From: a virus
DNA length: 64,000 nt
Strand: one strand, 5' to 3'
IMG/VR virus record: IMGVR_UViG_3300035181_001618
Span: 62,001 to 126,000 of that record
Shown here: positions 45,195 to 62,700 of the stretch, piece by piece
Layout of the letters: each line of letters opens with the position of its first letter
Position numbering within the stretch: the stretch's first letter is position 1
Program-made: the position numbers and the translations under genes
Notes under the pieces: generated by a model
Databases searched by the model: none
Seen by the model: only the letters and a program-made list of their open reading frames with translations
What the model was told of the DNA's origin: nothing

Positions 45195-45617
45195 CTATTT
45201 AGCTGAAAGCGGCTTCTTTGTACGATACCAGCCTAGGGTTCTGCCGCTGGCTTGAGCCGCCGCGATCATGGCGTCATTGGTGACATGCACGCCTGAGTAG
45301 AGCGCTGCCGCACCCTTGCGAATTGCTTGCTGCTCAACGAAGTGGATGAGCTGCTTGTAGATGCCTTGTTTGCGGTGCTCTTCAGCCACCGCAGAGAACA
45401 GCACCCACGCCGCACGCTTAGGAGGGTCATAGCTCCAGACCGACGCGCCGATCACCTGGTCACCCAACAGCGCATAGGCTACCAGAGAACCGTTCGTGAA
45501 CGGCAAGTCATAGTCTGCGTGGCCTGCCTTGACGAGAGCGAGGTACTCCTCGAGCACGAAGACGAAGGCCTTCGAATGCGCAAGCGAGTCCTCGCTGACA
45601 ACTTTAAGGAGCTGCAT
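45195..45617 (-). CDS. GNAT-family acetyltransferase, 140 aa
   Basis: Motif A EEHRKQGIYKQLIHFVEQQ near residue 80 has the acetyl-CoA pyrophosphate loop (Q/RxxGxx), preceded by a strand AAWVLFSAVAEE and followed by GAAALYSGVHVTNDAMIAAA. This is the full GNAT fold. Substrate unknown. It is the last gene of the nine-gene operon that starts at 52047 and overlaps the PP-loop gene upstream by 14 bases. Confidence 0.8.
   Translation of the reverse strand: MQLLKVVSEDSLAHSKAFVFVLEEYLALVKAGHADYDLPFTNGSLVAYALLGDQVIGASVWSYDPPKRAAWVLFSAVAEEHRKQGIYKQLIHFVEQQAIRKGAAALYSGVHVTNDAMIAAAQASGRTLGWYRTKKPLSAK
45196..45201 (-). promoter_or_regulatory. Late promoter element of the lysis genes
   Basis: CTAAATAGCGGC then ATG (45190) on the minus strand. 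The element overlaps the stop codon of the acetyltransferase gene. Confidence 0.55.
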
Positions 45618-46587
45618 AGAGCCTTGCCTCGCCGCTCTTAAGGCCTTCGATGAAGGTCTCGAGCGTCACGATGATCTTCTGGTCTAGCGGCTTGAACTGA
45701 CGCGTCACGATGTTCATCAAGGCTTGCCCCTCTGACACCAGGTCATTAGCGTTCTCAAAGCCTGTATATTTCATCGCTTGCACCAGCTCAGGGAACTGCT
45801 CGACATACATGCATGGCTTGATGAAGTAGCTAAAGCAGGTCCATGATTGGGCGATGCCAGGCTTGATCGAGTCAAATGACGAGTAGACAGCTTGATGAGC
45901 CAACCGCAAACCCTTGACAGCCGGGTGGTCAAGGTAAGAGAGGATCAATTCAGGCGAGTACATGAAGAACTTCGTGCAGCCCTCGATCCCGTACTTGATC
46001 AGGTGCTGTTGAATCGGCGTAGGGCCGAAGGAGGTAACAATCGGGTCACCTTCTAAGCTCGAACCCTTTGACAGGACCATGTCGCCGCCAGCCATGATGA
46101 AGGCGTGGGTGTCCTTGAATAGCTCGATCAAGTAAAGCTGGGCTAGCACTCGAGCATTGGTCAAGCAGTGCTCAGCGGCAAGCTGTTGGCCTCGCCCGTC
46201 ATAGAACTTTTGCAGGTCTAGGTCAATCAGCAATGGCTTGAGGTCAAACTTTCGACAGAACTCAAATGCTTGCTTGATGTCATGCTCGTTACGGATCCCA
46301 CCCTTCGGACCCCGTATGTGCATGATGACCGGCTCAAACAGAATCTTGCGGTCCAGAAGCGAGAGGCAAACCGCTTGCGAGTCCCCGCCGCCGCTCAAGC
46401 CCACACGAATAGGCTTGGTGAATTGGTTAGCAAGGTCCTCTACGGTGTTACCGCACTCTTCGCGAAACGACCTGACCTCACGAGTGACACCCGCTACCTC
46501 AACGGCGAACTTACCGTCGACGATTGGGTCATTGTGCCACTGGCCATTCCACCCCCACTTGTAGTGGTTATCCTTGCTGTATTGCAT
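45604..46587 (-). CDS. Asparagine-synthase-like PP-loop ATPase, 327 aa
   Basis: VGLSGGGDSQAVCLSLL (SGGxDS, residues 65-70) is the PP-loop that adenylates a carboxylate or urea-type oxygen. There is no N-terminal glutaminase domain, so ammonia or an amine donor must come from elsewhere. Near the end it has MKYTGFENANDLVSEG, a motif shared with the second PP-loop protein at 48712, so the two are paralogues. Start MQYSKDN lies inside the end of the upstream gene. Related enzymes make amide bonds in lasso peptides, beta-lactams and carbapenems. Confidence 0.75.
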   Translation of the reverse strand: MQYSKDNHYKWGWNGQWHNDPIVDGKFAVEVAGVTREVRSFREECGNTVEDLANQFTKPIRVGLSGGGDSQAVCLSLLDRKILFEPVIMHIRGPKGGIRNEHDIKQAFEFCRKFDLKPLLIDLDLQKFYDGRGQQLAAEHCLTNARVLAQLYLIELFKDTHAFIMAGGDMVLSKGSSLEGDPIVTSFGPTPIQQHLIKYGIEGCTKFFMYSPELILSYLDHPAVKGLRLAHQAVYSSFDSIKPGIAQSWTCFSYFIKPCMYVEQFPELVQAMKYTGFENANDLVSEGQALMNIVTRQFKPLDQKIIVTLETFIEGLKSGEARLYAAP

Positions 46588-47098
46588 GCTTCTTCCAGTA
46601 GCTGTGACGCTTGCTGCCTGGCGTCCACGGCAGCTTAACGTTAAAGTTGTATGCAACCCACGAAACAAAGGTGTTGCAGTTGTTGGCAAAGAGGTGAAAC
46701 CCCGTAGTTACCTTTGGGTAGTCATTGACTACGTCGAGCACGTCTAACAGCGCCGCGTCGCGTACGGTAGCCAGCAGCCTAGGCTTGTGGCCAAACCAGC
46801 GTTGGCCGGCATGCCTGTCAGAGGCGAGCACTACCTGCTCAAGAGGTGCGACTGGCCGCCGAATGTATGACCTAAATGAGACCTCTTGGTAGTCTAGCGT
46901 CTCAGCGCTGCTTACTTCAAAGACTGTATGCACGCCGTTTCGCACATAAGCCACATATGAATGCTGTCCACCCAGTCTTCCCTTCAAGCCAAACGTGCGC
47001 GCACGCATGAAGTGCAAGCCGTCAGGCAGCTCCAGCTCGATGTTCACAGCTTGGTCTTGCCAGCGGCCGAAGAGCGTGTCATGGAGAAGGGCTATCAT
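46568..47098 (-). CDS. DUF3750/LRAT-like thiol hydrolase or acyltransferase, 176 aa
   Basis: GGQHSYVAYVR gives His46 and FANNCNTFVSWVAYNF gives Cys141. The order His then NC resembles permuted NlpC/P60 (LRAT) enzymes, whose NCEHF Cys forms a thioester and transfers acyl groups. The middle HAGQRWFGHKPRLLATV and spacing recall DUF3750. Start MIALLHD (47098) overlaps the PhyH gene end. In this operon, with desaturases and an ACP elsewhere, an acyl-transfer or amide-hydrolysis role is plausible but unproven. Confidence 0.6.
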   Translation of the reverse strand: MIALLHDTLFGRWQDQAVNIELELPDGLHFMRARTFGLKGRLGGQHSYVAYVRNGVHTVFEVSSAETLDYQEVSFRSYIRRPVAPLEQVVLASDRHAGQRWFGHKPRLLATVRDAALLDVLDVVNDYPKVTTGFHLFANNCNTFVSWVAYNFNVKLPWTPGSKRHSYWKKHAIQQG

Positions 47099-47933
47099 GA
47101 GGAGACATCTTGTAGTAGTTGACGTGCTGCCTATCATAAGCCGCCTGCCAGCTTCCACGGTCGGTGTCCCAGTCACCCGTCGGTACAGGGTCATGGATGA
47201 AGTGCCCGTGACGGTCCTCACCCTGCACCCACAATGTCGACTCGGGTGCGAAGTTAGCAATCGGCTTAACATGGCCCGCGGCGAAGATCATACCGCACGC
47301 CAGGCGCGGCTCTGAGCTTGTGTTCGACGACGAGCCATGAACTATGTAAGGCGAATGCATCGTAATGTGGCCTGCTGGCACCTCCGCTGACATGAGGCGC
47401 CGCGGGCGCTTGCCAGTCTCAGGCTCAACAGCCGTCTGACCGCGCATCAGGAGGTTCGACTCGCTCCGCACGTCATGGTGCTCAAGCTGCTTCTTATCCT
47501 TGTGCGAGCGTAGCCGGTACCTGATCGCGCCGCTCTCGCAGGTCACGTCGTTGAACGCCAGCCAGACCGTGACCGCATCCTTCGGCGCGAAGTTCCAGTA
47601 GGTTGCGTCTTGGTGGTAGGACACGATCTTGCCGTCATTGGGCTCCTTGACCCAGAACAGGGTGTCCCAGCAGTGGAAGTCATCGCCCAGCACCGCCCCG
47701 ACATAGTGCCTAATCGCCGCTGACTTGACAATCTCAGCCATCCACGGGAAGAGCACCTGGCTCTTGCAGCGGTAGTCGGAGGCCATCAAATTGCGGTCAG
47801 AGATCTCAGCAAGCAGGTGCTGACGGTAGACCGCAACCTGCTCATCCGTGAAGACGCGCAGCGGCCAAACAGCTCCGATCTCGTCAAACTCTCGCTTAAC
47901 AGCTTCTGGGTTCAGGAGGTAGAGGTCGGTCAT
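47079..47933 (-). CDS. PhyH-family 2OG-Fe(II) oxygenase, 284 aa
   Basis: VSYHQDATYW provides His107 and Asp109. MHSPYIVHGSSSNTS provides distal His199, with Arg209 for 2-oxoglutarate. WLAFNDVTCESGAIRY is the phytanoyl-CoA dioxygenase pattern. The Asp is kept, so it should hydroxylate rather than halogenate. PhyH enzymes act on acyl-CoA, acyl-ACP or carrier-bound amino acids, which suits a pathway with desaturases. The ATG overlaps the desaturase stop (ATGA). Confidence 0.82.
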   Translation of the reverse strand: MTDLYLLNPEAVKREFDEIGAVWPLRVFTDEQVAVYRQHLLAEISDRNLMASDYRCKSQVLFPWMAEIVKSAAIRHYVGAVLGDDFHCWDTLFWVKEPNDGKIVSYHQDATYWNFAPKDAVTVWLAFNDVTCESGAIRYRLRSHKDKKQLEHHDVRSESNLLMRGQTAVEPETGKRPRRLMSAEVPAGHITMHSPYIVHGSSSNTSSEPRLACGMIFAAGHVKPIANFAPESTLWVQGEDRHGHFIHDPVPTGDWDTDRGSWQAAYDRQHVNYYKMSPHDSPSP

Positions 47934-48715
47934 TGTCGAATTGCTCGGATCCACAGCATTGATGGGTCAAACTCATACCACCGCTTCGTGCCGAAGTCAG
48001 GATTGCTGGCGTCGCCGTGATGGTTGTTGTGCAAGGCTTGCCCCCAAGTGATGAGGCTTAACAGCGGGCGGTTGACCGAGAAGTCCTTGGTCTGATAGTT
48101 ACGGTACGTGCCGATGCCGCCCGTGTGACCGAGCACATTGACAGCGGCCTCTTGGTGGATAGCCCAGACCTGAGCGAGCGTCAAAGCCAATAACGGGACC
48201 GGCGAAGCGATGAGCCAAAGCAGGGCGAAGAAGGCCCACGTGCCCCAGAGAACTGAGTGGTAGTAGGTCACCTGCCACTGCCATGTAGGCTCACGGAGGA
48301 AGTCAATGCCTGAACGCAACGAGACCTTGTTGACGATGTCCTTGTCAAAGGCATAGCCTTGGTACGCGGTCCACAGGCTATGAGCGTGCGGCGAGTGGAG
48401 GTCCTTCTCGGTGTCGGAGTAGCGGTGATGGACGCCCCGATGGAGCGCAACCCAGAACAGCGCATGGCCATGACAAGCAAGCAAGCCGAAGAACAGCATC
48501 GCCTGCTCCCACGCCTTGCTGGTCTTGAACGACCGATGTGAGAAGAAGCGGTGCAAGCCGACAGCTACACCCAAGCCGCTAATCAAGCAGTAGAAGCCGA
48601 ACGTCATAAGCAAAGTTGACGCTGGCAAGCCATAGCGCCACAGCAAGGCTACCGCAATCACGTGAGGCGGCAGCCAAACTTTCCAAAAGTGCGAGCTCGT
48701 AAGCATATCCCTCAT
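47930..48715 (-). CDS. Membrane fatty-acyl desaturase, 261 aa
   Basis: Three His boxes bind a di-iron centre: HRFFSH (55-60), HRGVHH (92-97) and HNNHH (229-233). Four membrane segments flank them (LLMTFGFYCLISGLGVAVGL, AFFALLWLIASPVPLLAL). This is the acyl-CoA/acyl-lipid desaturase family with GLHRFFSHRSF. It introduces a double bond into an acyl chain using O2 and an electron donor. A second, distinct copy lies at 49604; the PP-loop gene is between. Confidence 0.92.
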   Translation of the reverse strand: MRDMLTSSHFWKVWLPPHVIAVALLWRYGLPASTLLMTFGFYCLISGLGVAVGLHRFFSHRSFKTSKAWEQAMLFFGLLACHGHALFWVALHRGVHHRYSDTEKDLHSPHAHSLWTAYQGYAFDKDIVNKVSLRSGIDFLREPTWQWQVTYYHSVLWGTWAFFALLWLIASPVPLLALTLAQVWAIHQEAAVNVLGHTGGIGTYRNYQTKDFSVNRPLLSLITWGQALHNNHHGDASNPDFGTKRWYEFDPSMLWIRAIRQ

Positions 48716-49632
48716 TCTGCTACCTCTATGTTCTCTAGCTCCGCCCAGACCTCCTTGATCGGGCGAGAGAAGTCATCCATCCAGATTGTACCGTACCGCT
48801 CTTGACATAGCATTTTCCAACGCTGATTGATCGGCACGACTACGTCAAGCATGTTTTCAAAGCCAGTATACTTTTGCCGAGCTTCGAGCGTCGGGAACGC
48901 CCCTTGATAGTACTTGACCTTGAGCATCTCTGAGCTCCAGATCTGCGGCCGCCACATGTTAGCCACCAGGAGCTGCATGGTCGGCGTCCTGATGAAGGCA
49001 TTGGTCAGGTTTGTGTCGATCCACCCGTTCGGCTTCGAGTTAATGCCGTAATAGGTCAGGAACTTGGTCACTGAATAGTGGCGCTCGCTGTAGTACAGGT
49101 TCCACACGCGCTCGGGACCGCTGTCATCAGCGACCAGGCCTGGCTCGTCATAGCAATGGATGAACACGCGGTCAGGCGAGTTCAGGTCCAGCATCATCTT
49201 CAGCTGCCCGGTGTAAGCGAGCTCGGTGGTTTGACAGTTGGCCGCAATCTCGAACTGCTCGTCGCTGCCGTACCAGCTCTTGAGGTCGAAGAAGTGCTCA
49301 TACGGCGTGACGTCCCGACGAGCGCACCAACGCCTAGCCCAGTAGAGGTCATGATTGTTTGCGCCGTTATTCATGATCGTCGGCGTAAACTTGACTCCAG
49401 CGGTCCACAGGCTCTCACAGATCCACTCGCTGTCAAGGCCGCCGCTGAAGAGGACCATCAGCTCCTTGTCAGGATATGTAGCAGCGAGGTCCTTCGCTGC
49501 GGCCAAGGACTCTTGTCTCAACGACATCGGCGGGCGAGTCGGGCGCTCGAACCAGACCTGGTAGCACTGCTCATTGTTGGTGCGCGGAATGTCGGCTACG
49601 CCGTCATACCCTTTGTAGATGCGTGATGTCAT
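48712..49632 (-). CDS. Asparagine-synthase-like PP-loop ATPase, 306 aa
   Basis: ELMVLFSGGLDSEWICESLW contains SGGLDS at residues 63-68. KYTGFENMLDVVVPINQ near the end is shared with the PP-loop protein at 45604. No glutaminase domain. Each PP-loop gene is coupled to a different set of partners, so they may do successive ligations. Overlaps the desaturase genes on both sides (4 and 29 bases). Confidence 0.75.
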   Translation of the reverse strand: MTSRIYKGYDGVADIPRTNNEQCYQVWFERPTRPPMSLRQESLAAAKDLAATYPDKELMVLFSGGLDSEWICESLWTAGVKFTPTIMNNGANNHDLYWARRWCARRDVTPYEHFFDLKSWYGSDEQFEIAANCQTTELAYTGQLKMMLDLNSPDRVFIHCYDEPGLVADDSGPERVWNLYYSERHYSVTKFLTYYGINSKPNGWIDTNLTNAFIRTPTMQLLVANMWRPQIWSSEMLKVKYYQGAFPTLEARQKYTGFENMLDVVVPINQRWKMLCQERYGTIWMDDFSRPIKEVWAELENIEVAE

Positions 49633-50401
49633 GGCTGATATGCTTTATGAGATGGTAGCCTGGGTCACAAGCTTGAGGCGTGTCAACAGCAAAGTTAGCG
49701 GAGCCTGGAAAGGCGTGGTGGGTGTTGTGGAGGGTTTGCCCCCAAGTCAGCCACGCAAGCCACCGAATGTTCCGGCTATTGTCCTTGGTCAGGTGGTCAG
49801 CCTTGCCGAATCGCCTGTCATGACAGAAGCTGTTGATGATCGCCTCTTGATGGATACTTATCATCCCCGCGATAGCGGCTCCCGCTGCAATAGCACGAGT
49901 CGGTTCGAAACAGGCTAGGATGGCGAGCAAAGCCCACCAGCTCCACAGCAAGGTCGTGTACCGGCGATGTGCAAGTTTGCACCACTTGTCTTTGATTAGG
50001 TCGCTCGCAAGCGACATGGACACGTCAGTAGGCTTGATCGAGAAGATCCAGCCCATGTATGCGTGCCAGAACCCTTTTGTCGGCGTGTGGATGTCAGGTA
50101 GCTTGTCTGAGTTTGGGTGATGCAACCGATGTAAAGCGACCCAGAAGATGACAGAGCCTTGGCCCGCCAGCGAGCCGCCGATAAGCATGACATAGCGCCA
50201 GAACGCGTTCGTGGTAAACGCTCGATGCGTGAAGTATCGGTGAAACCCGACGCTCACGCCTAAGCCTGAGAACCACAGATTGAGGGCCAAGAAGGAAGCG
50301 AGAAGTCCCCAAGACATGCTATGAACGGCATAAAATAGACCGGCAAGGCCTACAGCGTGCGCGGGTAGGTGTATCCTAGTGACGTGCGGATTAGGCGACA
50401 T
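49604..50401 (-). CDS. Membrane fatty-acyl desaturase, 265 aa
   Basis: His boxes HRYFTH (54-59), HRLHH (91-95) and HNTHH (225-229), with extra His in IHQEAIINSFCHD. Four membrane segments. It is paralogous to the 47930 desaturase but differs in the second box and loop lengths, so the two may act on different positions or substrates. The gene overlaps the acetyltransferase-like gene at 50391 by 11 bases. Confidence 0.92.
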   Translation of the reverse strand: MSPNPHVTRIHLPAHAVGLAGLFYAVHSMSWGLLASFLALNLWFSGLGVSVGFHRYFTHRAFTTNAFWRYVMLIGGSLAGQGSVIFWVALHRLHHPNSDKLPDIHTPTKGFWHAYMGWIFSIKPTDVSMSLASDLIKDKWCKLAHRRYTTLLWSWWALLAILACFEPTRAIAAGAAIAGMISIHQEAIINSFCHDRRFGKADHLTKDNSRNIRWLAWLTWGQTLHNTHHAFPGSANFAVDTPQACDPGYHLIKHISHDITHLQRV

Positions 50402-50909
50402 AGGAACGGCGGATTAGCAGCGGGATGGCAAGCACAGTCTCATGCATGACATGCTCCCAGAGGATCGGGTCAGCTACCTTCTTGTACGGCTCGACCGCGC
50501 ATACGTCCTCGATGGTGTACTTGCGCAAGTCCTCCGTGCCGTCTCGCCAGAAGGACCGGTAGGCTCGTGCCCACTTCGCAGGGAAAGCGTAGTAGAACTT
50601 CGTGACGTTTAAAGATTCATAAAATTTCAAGCACTCCGACAAGCACTCTCTTAGCTCTTTGGGGTCACCGTCAGAGACCATCAAGTCGAGCACCCAGAAG
50701 TCAACGTGCGCGTAGGCGCAGATGAAGGCTGTCAACCGGTCACCGTCAAACTTGCCTACAGCGTAGTGCGGTGCATGCTGGTAACGGGCGTGCACGCTGA
50801 GCAGTGGAGCTGTCGTGATTGCGGTCACCGCAGCGCCGGCGTGAGTTGTCTTAGTGGCGCGCAGCTTACGCATGGCTCGCCAGTCAGAAGGTAGCAGCTG
50901 TCTAAGCAC
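50391..50909 (-). CDS. GNAT-like acyltransferase, 172 aa, GTG start
   Basis: GTG 50909 (MLRQLLPSDWRAMRKLRATK) overlaps the previous stop region. HYAVGKFDGDRLTAFICAYA, FWVLDLMVSDGDPKELRECL and FYESLNVTKFYYAFPAKWAR follow the strand-helix order of GNAT N-acyltransferases. A clear acetyl-CoA RxxGxG loop is not seen, so it may be a degenerate member or use an acyl-ACP. Part of the biosynthetic operon. Confidence 0.55.
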   Translation of the reverse strand: MLRQLLPSDWRAMRKLRATKTTHAGAAVTAITTAPLLSVHARYQHAPHYAVGKFDGDRLTAFICAYAHVDFWVLDLMVSDGDPKELRECLSECLKFYESLNVTKFYYAFPAKWARAYRSFWRDGTEDLRKYTIEDVCAVEPYKKVADPILWEHVMHETVLAIPLLIRRSYVA

Positions 50910-51336
50910 GTGTGTAGACCGCTCCGTTGAACCGAGGGGCGACACGAGAGAAGACCGTGCGGTAGACAGGGTGGTCAATCATCATGCCAGGGGTAACAGA
51001 CAGCACGTGAGTCCAACCCGCCGGCGGCTCAACGCCTTCCTTCAAGAAGATTTGCGTGGGCAGAGCGAGCTTGTCAGCGACCAGGTCAAGGTGCGCGATG
51101 CTGCCGAACCAGTGATGAATGTAGGCTCCGCCCTTCTCATGCATGATCGTATAGAGCGCCGCGGCTACAGTCATGTCAGTCCCTGTGTCGGTAACCTCAT
51201 AGATGCCGGTCGTGTCGGTCGGGGTCAGGAAGTACTGTGTCAGCTGAGTGTGCGTCGCGAGCAGTGGATCATGCTGCATCAGGTACCGTTGGATTCGGCG
51301 ATGGTCAAGACGAGTGAGGGTTTTGGCTTCGTACAT
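50902..51336 (-). CDS. Unknown protein of the biosynthetic operon, 144 aa
   Basis: MYEAKTLTRLDHRRIQRYLM, then TVAAALYTIMHEKGGAYIHH and PPAGWTHVLSVTPGMMIDHP. A small alpha/beta protein, possibly another diverged GNAT-type fold, but without recognisable motif. It starts shortly after the 51340 gene stop and overlaps the next gene by eight bases, so it is co-translated. Confidence 0.55.
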   Translation of the reverse strand: MYEAKTLTRLDHRRIQRYLMQHDPLLATHTQLTQYFLTPTDTTGIYEVTDTGTDMTVAAALYTIMHEKGGAYIHHWFGSIAHLDLVADKLALPTQIFLKEGVEPPAGWTHVLSVTPGMMIDHPVYRTVFSRVAPRFNGAVYTRA

Positions 51337-51339
51337 AGC

Positions 51340-52047
51340 TTAGAATGGGTGAATGACGGTCTTCATCTTGAGCATATTTAGCTCAACAAAGCTCCCCACG
51401 TATCGACTGTGGTTGAGGGCTACCAGCTGGAGCAAAGCTGTAATGAGCCAGGCTACCTGCAAGTTGTGAAACGCCAGCGGCAGGCTGTAGTTAGCCGTGT
51501 CAAGGTAGCTCTCGTTGAGACGAACGAATGTGCGTACGTTTAGTTTCGTCCAGGGAAAGCACATTGGGCCAAGCCAGAGCCTCATACGATTGCAGATGAC
51601 CGGCAGATACGTCTTGCCCGGCATGTCAGGGAGGTCAAGGTAAGAGTCAGCGAAGACCAACGTAAGCTTGGCGTCATCAGCCGGATACATCCCGTTCTCT
51701 TCGAGGCCGTCAGCTACCAGCTGACCGACGCTGTTCTTAGTCAGGTCGATGAAATTGTACGTGACGTGCTTGAGCTGTTCTTGCACGTCGGCCCAGGCGG
51801 CCCCGTGGAGCTCCCAGCCTGCCATGCTCGGATGTGGGTCAAAGGCAAGAAAGCCTCGAGCGTTGTACGCTTCGAGCAGCTCCATCTCGTCATCGTCGAG
51901 GTCAGTAACGTCAATGCCGACTACCAAGCGGTCGAGGAACTTTTGCCTGTCAAGCGGCTCAACATGCTTGACGTTTTCGCTTACGAGCAAAGCCTCGCCG
52001 ACACCTGTGCTTTTCAAGAGCCACTGAGGCTTCAATTTGATGATCAT
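51340..52047 (-). CDS. Possible E1-like/TOMM cyclodehydratase partner protein, 235 aa
   Basis: The N-terminal part KPQWLLKSTGVGEALLVSEN then FLDRLVVGIDVTDLDDDEME resembles leader-binding winged-helix domains of RiPP enzymes. The later LVFADSYLDLPDMPGKTYLP then ICNRMRLWLGPMCFP recalls the TOMM E1-like pattern (VVDDYL...WxGPLFxPG). The zinc Cys pairs and nucleotide loop of full E1 enzymes are missing. This is pattern memory, not a secure assignment. It is the first gene of the operon and starts after a terminator. Confidence 0.35.
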   Translation of the reverse strand: MIIKLKPQWLLKSTGVGEALLVSENVKHVEPLDRQKFLDRLVVGIDVTDLDDDEMELLEAYNARGFLAFDPHPSMAGWELHGAAWADVQEQLKHVTYNFIDLTKNSVGQLVADGLEENGMYPADDAKLTLVFADSYLDLPDMPGKTYLPVICNRMRLWLGPMCFPWTKLNVRTFVRLNESYLDTANYSLPLAFHNLQVAWLITALLQLVALNHSRYVGSFVELNMLKMKTVIHPF

Positions 52048-52066: not shown

Positions 52067-52082
52067 GGGCCGAATTCGGCCC
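52067..52082 (-). terminator. Rho-independent terminator-like hairpin
   Basis: Minus strand GGGCCG AATT CGGCCC then CTCTTTC, just after the 52090 gene stop. It separates virion transcripts from the biosynthetic operon. Confidence 0.65.
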
Positions 52083-53723: not shown

Positions 53724-54362
53724 TTATTTAACGCTGAACCAACCGACTACGGAGTAGCGCTTACCCTTAGTCAAGGGCGTGACCTCATGCAGGAAGCGGA
53801 TGTCGGATGGGAAGAGGACCATGCCTCCCGTAGCAGGGTGCAGCTTGACAATCGAGCCATCGCTGTGATGCACCGAATGCAGCACTAGGTCGCCGCCTTC
53901 ATAGTCCTCATTGAGGTACATGATGCAGGTCAGCTGCCGATGCGGCGAGGTGTACCTGAAGACGCCTTTTGCGTCGTAGTATGCGTTGTCTGTATGAGCG
54001 AGAAAGTGCCCTTTGTCAACGTCAGCGTATGACAAGAACTGAAGAGGCTCTGAGAGGAACGCCGGCTTACCAAGCAGCGCGGTCGTGTGATGGGTGACAG
54101 CCGCTGTCATGCGCTGAGCGACCTGGGCATAAAGCTCAGGCTCAAGCTGCATGGCTTTTGAGGACCGATGGTAGGTGTCAACCACCTGCTTGTGAAGCGT
54201 CACTTCACTGTCATACACGCCCGAAGCTTGAGGGTTGCTCAAGCTTGCAATCACGCGCTGGCAAAACTCGCCGTCGAGGGTGACGGCGGTAATCACAGGT
54301 GGGTGGAACTGTGGCACGAAGTTCGCGCCGTACGGCTCTAACGAGCGGTAGTCGACGTACAT
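53724..54362 (-). CDS. Prolyl-4-hydroxylase-like 2OG-Fe(II) oxygenase, 212 aa
   Basis: FLAHTDNAYY gives His123 and Asp125; RFLHEVTPLTKGKRYSVVGW gives His192 and Arg202 (or Lys201), the PKHD/P4H set. YEGGDLVLHS is the core strand. It hydroxylates proline or another side chain in proteins. It lies between a Pro-rich fibre gene and, 2.4 kb away, the collagen-like GPT fibre gene. The start shares ATG with the previous stop (TAATG-like). Confidence 0.85.
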   Translation of the reverse strand: MYVDYRSLEPYGANFVPQFHPPVITAVTLDGEFCQRVIASLSNPQASGVYDSEVTLHKQVVDTYHRSSKAMQLEPELYAQVAQRMTAAVTHHTTALLGKPAFLSEPLQFLSYADVDKGHFLAHTDNAYYDAKGVFRYTSPHRQLTCIMYLNEDYEGGDLVLHSVHHSDGSIVKLHPATGGMVLFPSDIRFLHEVTPLTKGKRYSVVGWFSVK

Positions 54363-54583
54363 TAGCGACGCGTTGCTGTGGTCAGTGACCTGATCTCGCC
54401 GTTGAGAGCTTTTGGTTCGATCAGCGCGTTGCCTAAGTCATACTCTTCAAGAATCATAGCAGGCACAACCTCAAAGACAAATGTGCCCCGATTGCCATTG
54501 CGCACGATGTTCTGCAGCTTGTAGCCCTTAACCTTCAGGTAAGCGGCGAGAATGATGTCTACTGTAGAGAAATTATTTTGCAT
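54362..54583 (-). CDS. DUF5659-like small phage protein, 73 aa
   Basis: FSTVDIILAAYLKVKGYKLQ then NRGTFVFEVVPAMILEEYDL and EPKALNGEIRSL follow the pattern of DUF5659-type small proteins (helix, FVFE strand, Y..G...V.P..F/L). Function unknown. The start overlaps the homing endonuclease stop and its stop overlaps the hydroxylase start. Confidence 0.6.
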   Translation of the reverse strand: MQNNFSTVDIILAAYLKVKGYKLQNIVRNGNRGTFVFEVVPAMILEEYDLGNALIEPKALNGEIRSLTTATRR

Positions 54584-55220
54584 GATGCTTTTCCCACCTC
54601 AGCTTTGCGCTTTCGCGCATTCTTTGTCGCGTCTCTTCTGACGCGCTAGAACCGGCATTCCATGCAGGAACGCCTGTTCTCTTTCCTTTGTTAGCCGGCT
54701 CTTTGCCTAATCGAGCTTTACTGATATTTGCTTTATGCTCTTCAGTAAATGTACGCGATGATCCAACTCTGTTGCCCATCATGAGTTGCCTCAAGATCGG
54801 ATCTTGCCAAACAGCTTTAAGCTTCTCTGACCTTTTAGCTTTATTGGCTGGGTCGAGATTTGCAGATTGGAGCCCTGCTAGAATTTTATTCCGATACTGA
54901 TCATCTTGCCAACGTATCAGCATCTGATCACGCGTAATGTTTGCATGCTGTCTACGCAGCCAACCATAAGCTTTATTTGAAGCAAATGATCGCGTGATGC
55001 TCATCATATGAGCAGCGTGAATCAACTTTGTAGATGGATGAATCTTAGCCAGCAAGATATGAGCTAAAAAATGCTCTTCTGGCGTTAACGCAGCAATGTT
55101 GGAAGCATCATCGAGCCCGCCCATACATGACGGAACAATATGATGACGTTCTACATACCCTTCAATTGACCGAGATTTTGCTCGATCGATGAGGCTCTGA
55201 TATATGCGTTTGTAATCCAC
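54573..55220 (-). CDS. HNH homing endonuclease with NUMOD3 repeats, 215 aa
   Basis: GYVERHHIVPSCMGGLDDAS then LTPEEHFLAHILLAKIHPS is the same HNH core as at 11534 and 34694. NUMOD3-like repeats follow (ILRQLMMGNRVGSSRTFTEE, HKANISKARLGKEPANKGKR). GTG start four bases after TAAATA. AT-rich. It inserted between an LQQ gene and the DUF5659-like gene. Confidence 0.87.
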   Translation of the reverse strand: MDYKRIYQSLIDRAKSRSIEGYVERHHIVPSCMGGLDDASNIAALTPEEHFLAHILLAKIHPSTKLIHAAHMMSITRSFASNKAYGWLRRQHANITRDQMLIRWQDDQYRNKILAGLQSANLDPANKAKRSEKLKAVWQDPILRQLMMGNRVGSSRTFTEEHKANISKARLGKEPANKGKRTGVPAWNAGSSASEETRQRMRESAKLRWEKHHAK

Positions 55221-59742: not shown

Positions 59743-62700
59743 TTATCCTTCGACCACTACCGTGCGCACTTCGTCAAGCGTGATGAACGAGGTCTTGATG
59801 ATGTCTGCTAGCTCATATGAAGCCGACAGCGCATCTTCGAGCACCTCGAAGAACAGCTCATTGACGTTGCGCGTGTCCGCATAGTTCCAGAGGCTCGCCA
59901 TGAACTCCCGAATCGCGGTAGGTGTCGCTAAGTATGTATCCAGCATTGCGGAGTCATACCCAAAGAAGCTCACCGGTGACAGCTTGAACGAGCTGGTGAC
60001 CACGTCGTAGGTTACAACCTGCGTGTTAAGCAGGGCACCCTTGACGGTAGCAACAGCCGCGGCGCTGTCAGACAGCACTTGACCTTGCTTGAGGCCGATG
60101 CGCGACGTGGTGCCATTGCGCGAGTCGTACTCAGAGTACAACGCAAACGGCAGCATCTGGCCTGTAGCCGTTTGACCGCACATCGTGTCAACAAGCTTGT
60201 CCCAGAGATCCTTGGGGATTCGAGTTGGCTGGTTCCGACGAATGAGCTTCCACTCGGTGTGGGTCGGGCGCAAGGACATGTCGCGGTCATCGTCGCGCAT
60301 CGAGCCGTTCTCGGTGATCCGCAGCTTATACTGGTTGTCCTTCCGAACGAAGCGGGTCATGTTGACCACAGACAACAGCGCGTAACGGTTAGGGCGACCG
60401 TCAAGCTGGTTGAACCGCTTCATGACTTGAGGCACAGCGTAAGGACCTGGATGTTGAGCAAGTTGTTGAGCCGCCAGTTTAACGCTAAGCTTCTTACCTG
60501 CCGCAGCGGTCTCCTTGTTCTTGACCCAGTAGAAGTAGCTAGTCTTGCTGACACGGCCAAACTCGTTGCGTTCTTCAAGCTTTGAGTGCGGGGTGTCGAG
60601 CTTGTACTCGGTCAGCTTAGCAGGATCTACCGCGGTGCCTTCAAGCTGGAGCTTCAGCTCGTCACCTGTCGGCACCTTGAACGGCAGCTCGAACCGCAGC
60701 TTTGAGCCTTGGTCAATGTTCGACCGGCTAGGGTAGTACCCGTTAAGGCCCTTTGCTATCTGGTAGCCTCGCACTTGACGGACGCCGTTGATGTAAAATG
60801 CGAGACGCGCCGAGTCAGCGGCAGTCACGTTCAGGCTCAGGCTTTCAAGCACCTGCAAGTGCGTCTGTTCTCCCACGAAGTAGGTAGCTGTTGCGACCGT
60901 TGAGGTCAGACGCTTCCACGGGCTCCAGCGCTCGTCATAGGCTCGCACAGGCTGTGGGCTGTTTAGCTCGTCCTGAATGTCCGTCTTGATGTCATTGAGC
61001 TCAGTGCCAACGGCTGTGTAGTCGCCGACCATTGCGGCCCACGAGCCGAACGAATCGTCAAGGTCATCGGCTCCTAGGGTGTAGGTGGGCATGCTCCACG
61101 AGACCCAGCCGGTTGGGCCTGGGATTAGCGAGCCGTTAAGCGTTGTCACCTGCGGCTCGATGAGAACCCGAGCGGCAACTTGCTGACGAACAACGATGTC
61201 GTGAGCTGAATTGCCAAACTCAATGCCGACACGCGCAGCACGTTGCTCTTGCGTCAGCGTTCCTAAGCCGCCCCAGGCCTCGCTGTGACTGTACTTGGTC
61301 TTAGCCGTCAGCTTGATGCCGAGCAAGTCAAGGTTTAGCTCGACCAGCGTGGCTGACTTAGGCGGCGTGTCATCGACCAGCACGCGCTGAGTTTGACCGC
61401 TTGCAAACGTGACACGCACGTATGTTAGCGACCCAACCTGCTCATAGTCGATGACCACAGCGCCGTGAGGCAGAGAGGTTGAGGTCTCATAGATCTCAAA
61501 CTTGAAGTCCGTGAAGCTGGCTGTGGCGGCATATGTTGGCGAGCCAAGGGCGTTGGACGCTCCCGCAAGCTGGCTCACATCGCCGGTCAGCACTTCAATG
61601 CAGCCGTACGGCTTGAGCATCGTATTACGAGAGCCGTTGGTGTAGGTCATGCCGGCGATGCGCTCCAGCGCGCTAAACGCCGGCATCGCGCCGTCAAGAG
61701 CCAGCACGCTGTCTCCGAAGACTTCGAGCGTTGTGGTCTGCCGCTTCAGCGGAGCCTTAGGCGAAACCTGTGGGTTCTTTGAGTAGAGCCACACGACCGG
61801 GCGTTGATGCCAAGTGCGAGTCCTGCTAAGGTAGTTCTTGACCGCTAGCTCGCCTGTGCCTGTGTAAGACAGGGGTGGCACGTCGGACTCGATCCACTCA
61901 AACACGTCAATGCTCGCCCAGTCAGCAAGCGAACCCCACTGTGTCAGCCGGTCATTGTGGCTTGGGTAGAGCGCCACGTCGGAGTAGTTCATCCAGCCAG
62001 CGTTGGCGGTGTTCCACCAGACCTTGCCTACCTGCTCTCGACCCCAAGTACGAGAGCCGTCGGCTGTCAACGCCTTGTACTTGAGAGAGGTGACATTGTA
62101 GCGAGCAGGGTCATGACCTGCGGCGTAATCAACGGTTGCGTATGCCTGTGGGCTGTGAACGCCGCGAGCCGGGTCCCACCAGATGACATTGTTGTTGATC
62201 GGCGTGTCACGGCCGCCGTCATCACGATACAGCTGGCTCGGTGAGAATCTTGCTAGCGGAGGACCATAGGCGATGATCAGCAGCGGCCTGTTGAACAGCG
62301 CCGTGTCGGTGATCACTAGCTGGCCAGAGTTCACGCGATTGAACTTAGCGGTGCTATACTCAGGTGGGTTAGTGCCTGTGACATAATCGCCCGTTTCGCG
62401 GTAGACCTTCGAGCCGCTCTTCATGTAGGACGTGATGTCCAAGACCGGGGTCTGGTACACGTTTGCGCCGCTCGTTACGCCGATGTCTACGATCTCAAAT
62501 GCGTCAGCCAGCACCTCTCGGCCGTCAGCATCGCGCACAGTTAGCAGCTCAGAGCCGGTGACCTGCACCTGCATGGTTGCAACGATTTGCGCCTTCAGGT
62601 AGCTGATGGAGCCCAAGTCGCTAAAACTGTTCCAACGATCCTCATCGTCAGGCTTAATGATGATGCAGCCACGCGGATCGAGCAGGTCCATGTTAACAAT

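Follow-up and report, generated by a model that had tools for sequence, protein, structure and literature searches.

The 64,000-nucleotide stretch analyzed here (the window; positions 62,001 to 126,000, G000:C1:62001-126000, of the 133,943-base IMG/VR virus record IMGVR_UViG_3300035181_001618) carries an operon of ten minus-strand open reading frames (ORFs) within positions 45195-52047, numbered g1 to g10 by order of transcription. We are highly confident that these ten genes form one conserved functional module, since all of them occur in the same order in a second phage, and the genes of its two enzyme cassettes are found grouped in dozens of further phages from the environment. The constancy of the cassette partners, in phages whose backbone genes show no match, suggests a viral pathway that makes a product of its own. 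We put somewhat short of an even chance on the operon being a dedicated phage pathway that makes a desaturated, hydroxylated product of acyl-amide type. Gene families, conservation of the module, intactness of the catalytic motifs and the homology of g1 were all computed. The genes are as follows.

g1, 51340..52047, minus strand, 235 amino acids (aa): first operon gene; probable homologue of the E1-like leader-binding domain of azole-peptide (thiazole/oxazole-modified microcin, TOMM) cyclodehydratases
g2, 50902..51336, minus strand, 144 aa: no family; about 41% identity to its counterpart in the second phage
g3, 50391..50909, minus strand, 172 aa, GTG start at 50909: weakly GNAT-like; cassette A
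g4, 49604..50401, minus strand, 265 aa: SCD-type di-iron desaturase (PF00487, 2.5e-11); cassette A
g5, 48712..49632, minus strand, 306 aa: PP-loop ligase of asparagine/beta-lactam synthetase type, without glutaminase domain; cassette A
g6, 47930..48715, minus strand, 261 aa: second SCD-type desaturase, g4 paralogue (35%); 62% identity to its counterpart in the second phage
g7, 47079..47933, minus strand, 284 aa, ATG start at 47933: PhyH-type iron- and 2-oxoglutarate-dependent (Fe/2OG) hydroxylase (PF05721, 1.3e-20); cassette B
g8, 46568..47098, minus strand, 176 aa: DUF3750/Peptidase_C97 (PPPDE)-like cysteine hydrolase or transferase; cassette B
g9, 45604..46587, minus strand, 327 aa: second PP-loop ligase, of a distinct subfamily, with SGGGDS; cassette B
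g10, 45195..45617, minus strand, 140 aa: GNAT acyltransferase (PF00583, 2.7e-10); cassette B

The ten-gene operon and its counterpart in a second phage

An earlier sequence-only reading had called this a nine-gene operon, although its own list held ten, the number of ORFs that we counted. It had also described nearly all of the genes as overlapping by 4-29 bases, and this held at eight of the nine junctions (8, 11, 29, 4, 4, 20, 20 and 14 bases, with start codons set through alignment to the homologues in the second phage) but not at the remaining one, which is a 3-base gap. Such overlaps suggest translational coupling only; production in fixed ratio, as claimed in that reading, is more than they show. 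A second viral record, IMGVR_UViG_3300035180_001545, carries 20.9 kb of this region, 100% identical and with no mismatch, which makes an assembly artefact unlikely.

The search for the same gene order in metagenomic phages, proposed as a check by the same reading, yielded G001 (IMGVR_UViG_3300010965_000002; 176,943 bases), which was found by a scan with the window desaturases. This record encodes all ten operon genes on one strand, in the order of the window and at 38-62% identity (52% for g3), as g1-g2-g3-g4-g5, four extra genes, g6, a long oxidative run, g7-g8, an aminotransferase, g9 and g10. About 16 extra oxidative genes are interspersed among the ten, and the inserts include 2OG/Asp_Arg_Hydrox, TauD, radical SAM, SDR, nitroreductase and aminotransferase genes. 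In a 36-kb part of G001 that was compared with the window, matches to window ORFs were confined to the operon genes and a single 2OG oxygenase. None of the replication, virion and lysis genes tested matched between the two phages, and the three backbone proteins compared over the whole record, namely, the DNA polymerase, the helicase and the large virion protein of the window, had no match anywhere in G001. These protein comparisons strongly suggest that the two phages have unrelated backbones. Terminases could not settle their kinship, since none of the terminase families was found in the window record or in G001.

Besides these two phages, five further contigs carry both cassettes, and the cassette-bearing contigs with non-matching backbone genes include ones of 452 and 525 kb. 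The suggestion that the genes serve one biosynthetic pathway thus gains support from the ten-gene order in G001 and from sub-cassettes in many viral contigs, and the same data contradict the possibility, raised with that suggestion, that the genes are never conserved together. Hypervariable cargo regions are common in phages (PMC7029224), and the operon could in principle be a pile of unrelated auxiliary genes in one late-region cargo spot. This explanation is extremely improbable and already contradicted by the conserved order, since the ten genes keep that order between phages without matching backbone genes, fixed cassettes recur, and the two PP-loop proteins pair in a subfamily-specific manner.

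Cassettes A and B across viral contigs

To survey cassette A (g3, desaturase and g5-type PP-loop), viral contigs were scanned with four phage desaturases, giving 79 loci (L100-L178). A PP-loop protein of the same family lay within 2 kb on the same strand at 73 of the 79 loci, a count to be read with the caveats that the query alignment was built from desaturases already known beside PP-loops and that six of the 79 loci also fed the PP-loop profile. By the same criterion, a g3-type protein was present at 68 loci and all three genes together at 67. After clustering of the desaturases at 70% identity, 19 of 20 clusters retained the PP-loop and 17 of 20 both the PP-loop and the g3-type protein. 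The 67 complete loci showed only three gene orders (PP-g3-desaturase, 46; desaturase-PP-g3, 18; g3-desaturase-PP, 3), all of them cyclic permutations of one order to which g3-g4-g5 of the window conforms; a tandem array followed by differing losses would give such a pattern. Pairwise distances of the three proteins were correlated (r 0.52 to 0.86, permutation p 0.001), the desaturase-PP correlation being weak (0.19) among more diverged desaturase pairs.

A different group of viral desaturases lacks the PP-loop and sits beside a radical SAM enzyme and oxygenases (TauD), indicating that desaturation alone needs no PP-loop. At L013, L023, L025 and L030, a cassette of oxygenase, radical SAM protein (about 279 aa) and desaturase adjoins virion genes; the strand opposite it carries a GNAT-like gene, and there is no PP-loop. 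Many loci also have, near the core cassette, a gene of another PP-loop family whose members are longer (about 360-390 aa) and match asparagine synthase weakly (for example, L009:11475-12557, L008:11441-12520, L040:10768-11937 and L119:920-2080). Larger clusters at L102, L107, L112 and L119 contain, as judged by eye, SPASM-type radical SAM, Rieske-type and TauD-type oxygenase genes, and L034 has an ATP-grasp gene (Pfam) and a sulfotransferase-like gene.

Cassette B (PhyH, g8, g9-type PP-loop and GNAT) was surveyed with the PhyH proteins of five phages, the window phage and G001 included, which led to 22 further loci. Within 2 kb and on the strand of PhyH, a g8 relative was found at 17 of them, a PP-loop at 18 and both at 15. 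Clustering of the PhyH proteins at 90% identity left 15 clusters, 11 with g8 and 9 with g8 plus PP-loop, and at 70% identity only six, two of which had g8 plus PP-loop. The usual order is g10-PhyH-g8-PP, with g10 relatives directly preceding PhyH in L182, L184, L186, L187, L190, L193 and L201. Six of the seven cassette B PP-loops checked were of g9 type according to hidden Markov models (233-355 bits versus 35-54 for the g5 type), so that, in this sample, the two PP-loops of the window are paired with different partners. Phage auxiliary genes are usually treated singly; here, the members of two cassettes stay together and are arranged in only a few orders.

Enzyme families and the proposed product

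Pfam matches bore out the desaturase, PhyH and GNAT assignments made from the sequence for g4, g6, g7 and g10. Both g4 and g6 matched FA_desaturase, and the SCD/DesA-type metal-ligand motifs Hx4H, HxxHH, Nx3H and HNxHH were invariant in all 15 viral desaturases aligned; a profile of the family retrieved mouse SCD1 (PDB 4ymk) at 5.8e-32. The two enzymes are predicted to act on lipid or acyl-CoA chains. A genome scan with g4 and g6 returned six cellular desaturases at 33% identity, four in cyanobacterial clusters and two from Acidobacteria, and no PP-loop was found near any of the six. In a Nostoc locus (within L054-L057), three desaturase relatives form a tandem array flanked by an AMP-ligase-type enzyme on one side and acyl carrier protein/polyketide synthase genes on the other, which is a natural-product setting. 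Two records labelled Acinetobacter phage MD-2021a, L004 (CAKLQH020000002.1) and CAKLQF020000003.1, appear to be bacterial chromosome and were left aside; the match in L004 is surrounded by accD, folC and trpA.

The assignment of g5 and g9 as PP-loop ligases required a profile and a structure model, which upheld the earlier proposal. SGGxDS is invariant in the 15 members of the family, which also share conserved Asn, Asp, Lys and Glu residues. The AlphaFold2 model of g5 (pLDDT 86.8), of Rossmann-type fold, had as its closest Foldseek matches by E value carbapenam synthetase (1.2e-5), beta-lactam synthetase, LarE and asparagine synthetase B. No N-terminal nucleophile (Ntn) glutaminase or glutaminase-like domain was found in g5 or g9, in which the PP-loop starts from about residue 60. 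The synthetase-domain fold and SGGxDS are thus shared with asparagine synthetase B and the beta-lactam and carbapenam synthetases, whereas the operon proteins have a short N-terminal region of their own and are only 11-16% identical to these enzymes. A tblastn search of 50,697 phage records with the two operon PP-loops and two phage homologues gave no relatives at the sensitivity used. The cassettes also bring to light a large family of putative stand-alone ligases of asparagine/beta-lactam-synthetase type.

In the PDB, g7 matched 6zyk (2.4e-15); its iron site, HQD (HxD) with a later His, was invariant in five sequences, and relatives in other phages were 45-57% identical. A halogenase was ruled out by HxD in place of HxG/A. 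The proposed DUF3750/LRAT-like nature of g8 stood in its first part, with 25.6 bits to DUF3750 (cutoff 25, trimmed start), Peptidase_C97 matches in three of five members (E up to 3.7e-4) and an invariant Cys and one invariant His. The LRAT/HRASLS part was rejected: the first His and the Cys are invariant, but the second active-site His before the NCxxF Cys is not conserved. g10 reached 41 bits against PF00583 (cutoff 20.7). The g3 protein aligned with its L040 homologue at 87% (hhalign). Profile searches of the PDB with g1, g3 and g8 returned nothing usable.

In the pathway that we propose, the operon would combine two cassettes that contribute one PP-loop ligase each. In cassette A (g3-g4-g5, with g6), the desaturases would place double bonds in an acyl chain, g3 might move an acyl or related group, and g5 would form an amide or lactam through ATP-dependent acyl-adenylation. 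In cassette B (g7-g8-g9-g10), g7 would hydroxylate, g10 would acylate, g9 would form a second amide, and the Cys-His hydrolase g8 could release an acyl or peptidyl group by cleavage or pass it on. In the window phage, g1 might recruit a peptide or protein acceptor, which would give either a ribosomal peptide bearing acyl and hydroxyl groups or a modified protein; that the acceptor is a ribosomal peptide seems to us rather doubtful. If a small molecule or lipopeptide is made, this would be a virus-borne natural-product system.

Several observations weigh against such a pathway. The Foldseek TM-scores of the g5 model are modest (0.3-0.5), and sulfur-transferring PP-loops (LarE and TtuA) are also among its matches. 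The GNAT-like character ascribed to g3 came down to a weak resemblance, GNAT models matching few of 27 family members (best, 1.3e-3). YcaO (PF02624) was not found in G000, G001 or five other records, a set that includes some fragments, nor was a small precursor ORF conserved between G000 and G001, although a precursor peptide may be unconserved or distant from the operon. Of the loci examined, none but G000 and G001 has g1, which confines the peptide reading to these two and leaves the widespread cassettes outside it. Finally, families, motifs and conservation are the basis from which we infer substrate and product, as well as the sequence of reactions, the acyl-amide character of the product, a peptide as acceptor and any advantage to the phage.

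The main rival to this pathway is remodelling of host lipids, in which the desaturases would act on the acyl chains of host phospholipids and the other enzymes would make or trim modified lipids (N-acyl amino acid or ornithine type), altering the envelope during infection or against superinfection. We consider it unlikely overall. It is favoured by the SCD-type desaturases, in which all motif positions are conserved, and Roitman et al. reportedly tested the delta-9 activity of a viral desaturase in 2018. Asp_Arg_Hydrox-type hydroxylases and GNAT-like acyltransferases occur in ornithine-lipid pathways, which also counts in its favour. Viral desaturases are moreover already known and have been read as lipid modifying (PMC7300359, PMC7678222). 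However, remodelling of the membrane leaves the near-obligatory PP-loop partner, the E1-like protein and the C97-like hydrolase unexplained, and the desaturase group beside radical SAM and TauD genes does without a PP-loop.

PP-loop amidotransferases and GNATs are also known from O-antigen sugar pathways, and PP-loops amidating sugars that GNATs acylate could modify a surface glycan and so change the host receptor. GT-like proteins near the cassette in L009/L011 and the aminotransferase and SDRs of G001 would fit such a role, but no glycosyltransferase or nucleotide-sugar gene was recognized, either in the window operon or among the genes that separate its counterparts in G001, and desaturases have no role in such pathways. 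We regard glycan modification as very improbable.

The claim that no such phage system had been described held for the whole set in the literature searched, which fell short of most subscription papers and gave no description of these gene sets; it did not hold for phage lipid desaturases alone. The work of Roitman et al. (2018) on viral fatty acid desaturases (vFADs) is cited by PMC7300359 and PMC11480375. Like g4 and g6, vFADs are phage-borne SCD-type desaturases with intact motif positions; they are described as single host-like genes, whereas here two paralogues are tied to PP-loop and GNAT-like genes in a ten-gene operon. Pelagibacter phage Mosig (MT647606) has FA_desaturase, Asp_Arg_Hydrox, TauD and GNAT genes beside its tail fibres, but its cluster has no annotated PP-loop, none was detected there by tblastn with g5 and g9, and its desaturase is only 25-28% identical. 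In selidamides of phaeornamide type, an Fe/2OG hydroxylase and a GNAT acyltransferase build fatty-acylated ribosomal peptides (PMC9505594); the operon shares this enzyme pair but lacks the lanthionine synthetase, arginase and NHLP precursor and has desaturases and PP-loop ligases in addition. The gene set would be a new kind of system, although it may prove to be a variant of a ribosomal-peptide or lipid pathway.

The first gene and the surroundings of the operon

The possible E1-like nature of the first gene was supported by hhalign with controls and by a ranking across the window. Aligned to five E1-like domains from bacteria that TIGR03882 had retrieved, g1 gave a local probability of 89.8%, an E value of 1.8e-6 (single comparison) and a score of 49.3, in a comparison that was picked after the sequence had been read and in which both alignments are shallow. 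Five other operon profiles reached at most 3.1% local and 9.6% global probability, reversed g1 reached 0.1%, and 40 column shuffles scored no higher than 17.3. Among all window ORFs, g1 ranked best against the E1-like profile (36.4 versus 24.2). These alignments make it likely that g1 is homologous to E1-like/RiPP recognition element (RRE; RiPP, ribosomally synthesized and posttranslationally modified peptide) leader-binding domains. No Pfam, NCBIfam or PDB match to g1 was obtained, and genome scans found no cellular relative; an AlphaFold2 model built from two sequences was unusable (pLDDT 41). E1-like scaffold proteins bind leader peptides in azole-peptide-type pathways (PMC10634744). A close parallel to g1 is offered by the E1-like scaffold proteins of TOMM pathways (TruD N-terminal domain, McbB and TclI): over its whole length, g1 can be aligned to the N-terminal E1-like region of bacterial cyclodehydratases. 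Unlike TOMM clusters, the window operon has no YcaO cyclodehydratase, precursor peptide or dehydrogenase, whereas G001 has a nitroreductase-family gene. The widest reading is that lytic-type phages of many habitats share a natural-product pathway (acylated amide or lipopeptide) of PP-loop-centred modular cassettes, absent from the cellular genomes searched, of which the window version, E1-like without YcaO, would be a new viral ribosomal-peptide class; we hold it with considerable reserve, as a minority view.

The operon had been placed between lysis genes and fibres, and its flanks bear this out: one holds an endolysin (phrog_315), the other a virion-type protein, and g1 starts 43 bases past a virion-type gene with Pro/Ser/Thr-rich linkers. 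This neighbour raises the alternative that the enzymes hydroxylate, acylate or amidate an adjacent structural protein of the virion or tail fibre. Elsewhere, too, the cassettes lie near fibre or structural genes, pelagimyophage variable regions by the tail fibres hold radical SAM cassettes (PMC7029224), and the peptide leaders bound by E1-like proteins would suit such a target. However, cargo is often found in late regions for unrelated reasons, a folded fibre is an improbable substrate for membrane desaturases, and G001 has no neighbouring fibre-type gene beside g1. Virion modification is therefore distinctly unlikely in our estimation.

Scans for promoters and terminators did no better than shuffles. 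A perfect GC-rich hairpin, GGGCCGAATTCGGCCC, occupies window positions 52067-52082, past the stop codon of the virion-type gene and ahead of the g1 start; it may be a terminator, although the terminator scan as a whole did not exceed its shuffles. Further upstream is one more oxygenase:

2OG-Fe(II) oxygenase, 53724..54362, minus strand: phrog_61, 4.4e-25; 29% identity to G001 97009-97698

The virion-type gene parts it from g1, whereas its relative in G001 directly precedes g1, and it is possibly part of the biosynthetic module. A homing endonuclease (phrog_655, 6.5e-50) is encoded at window positions 54573-55220.

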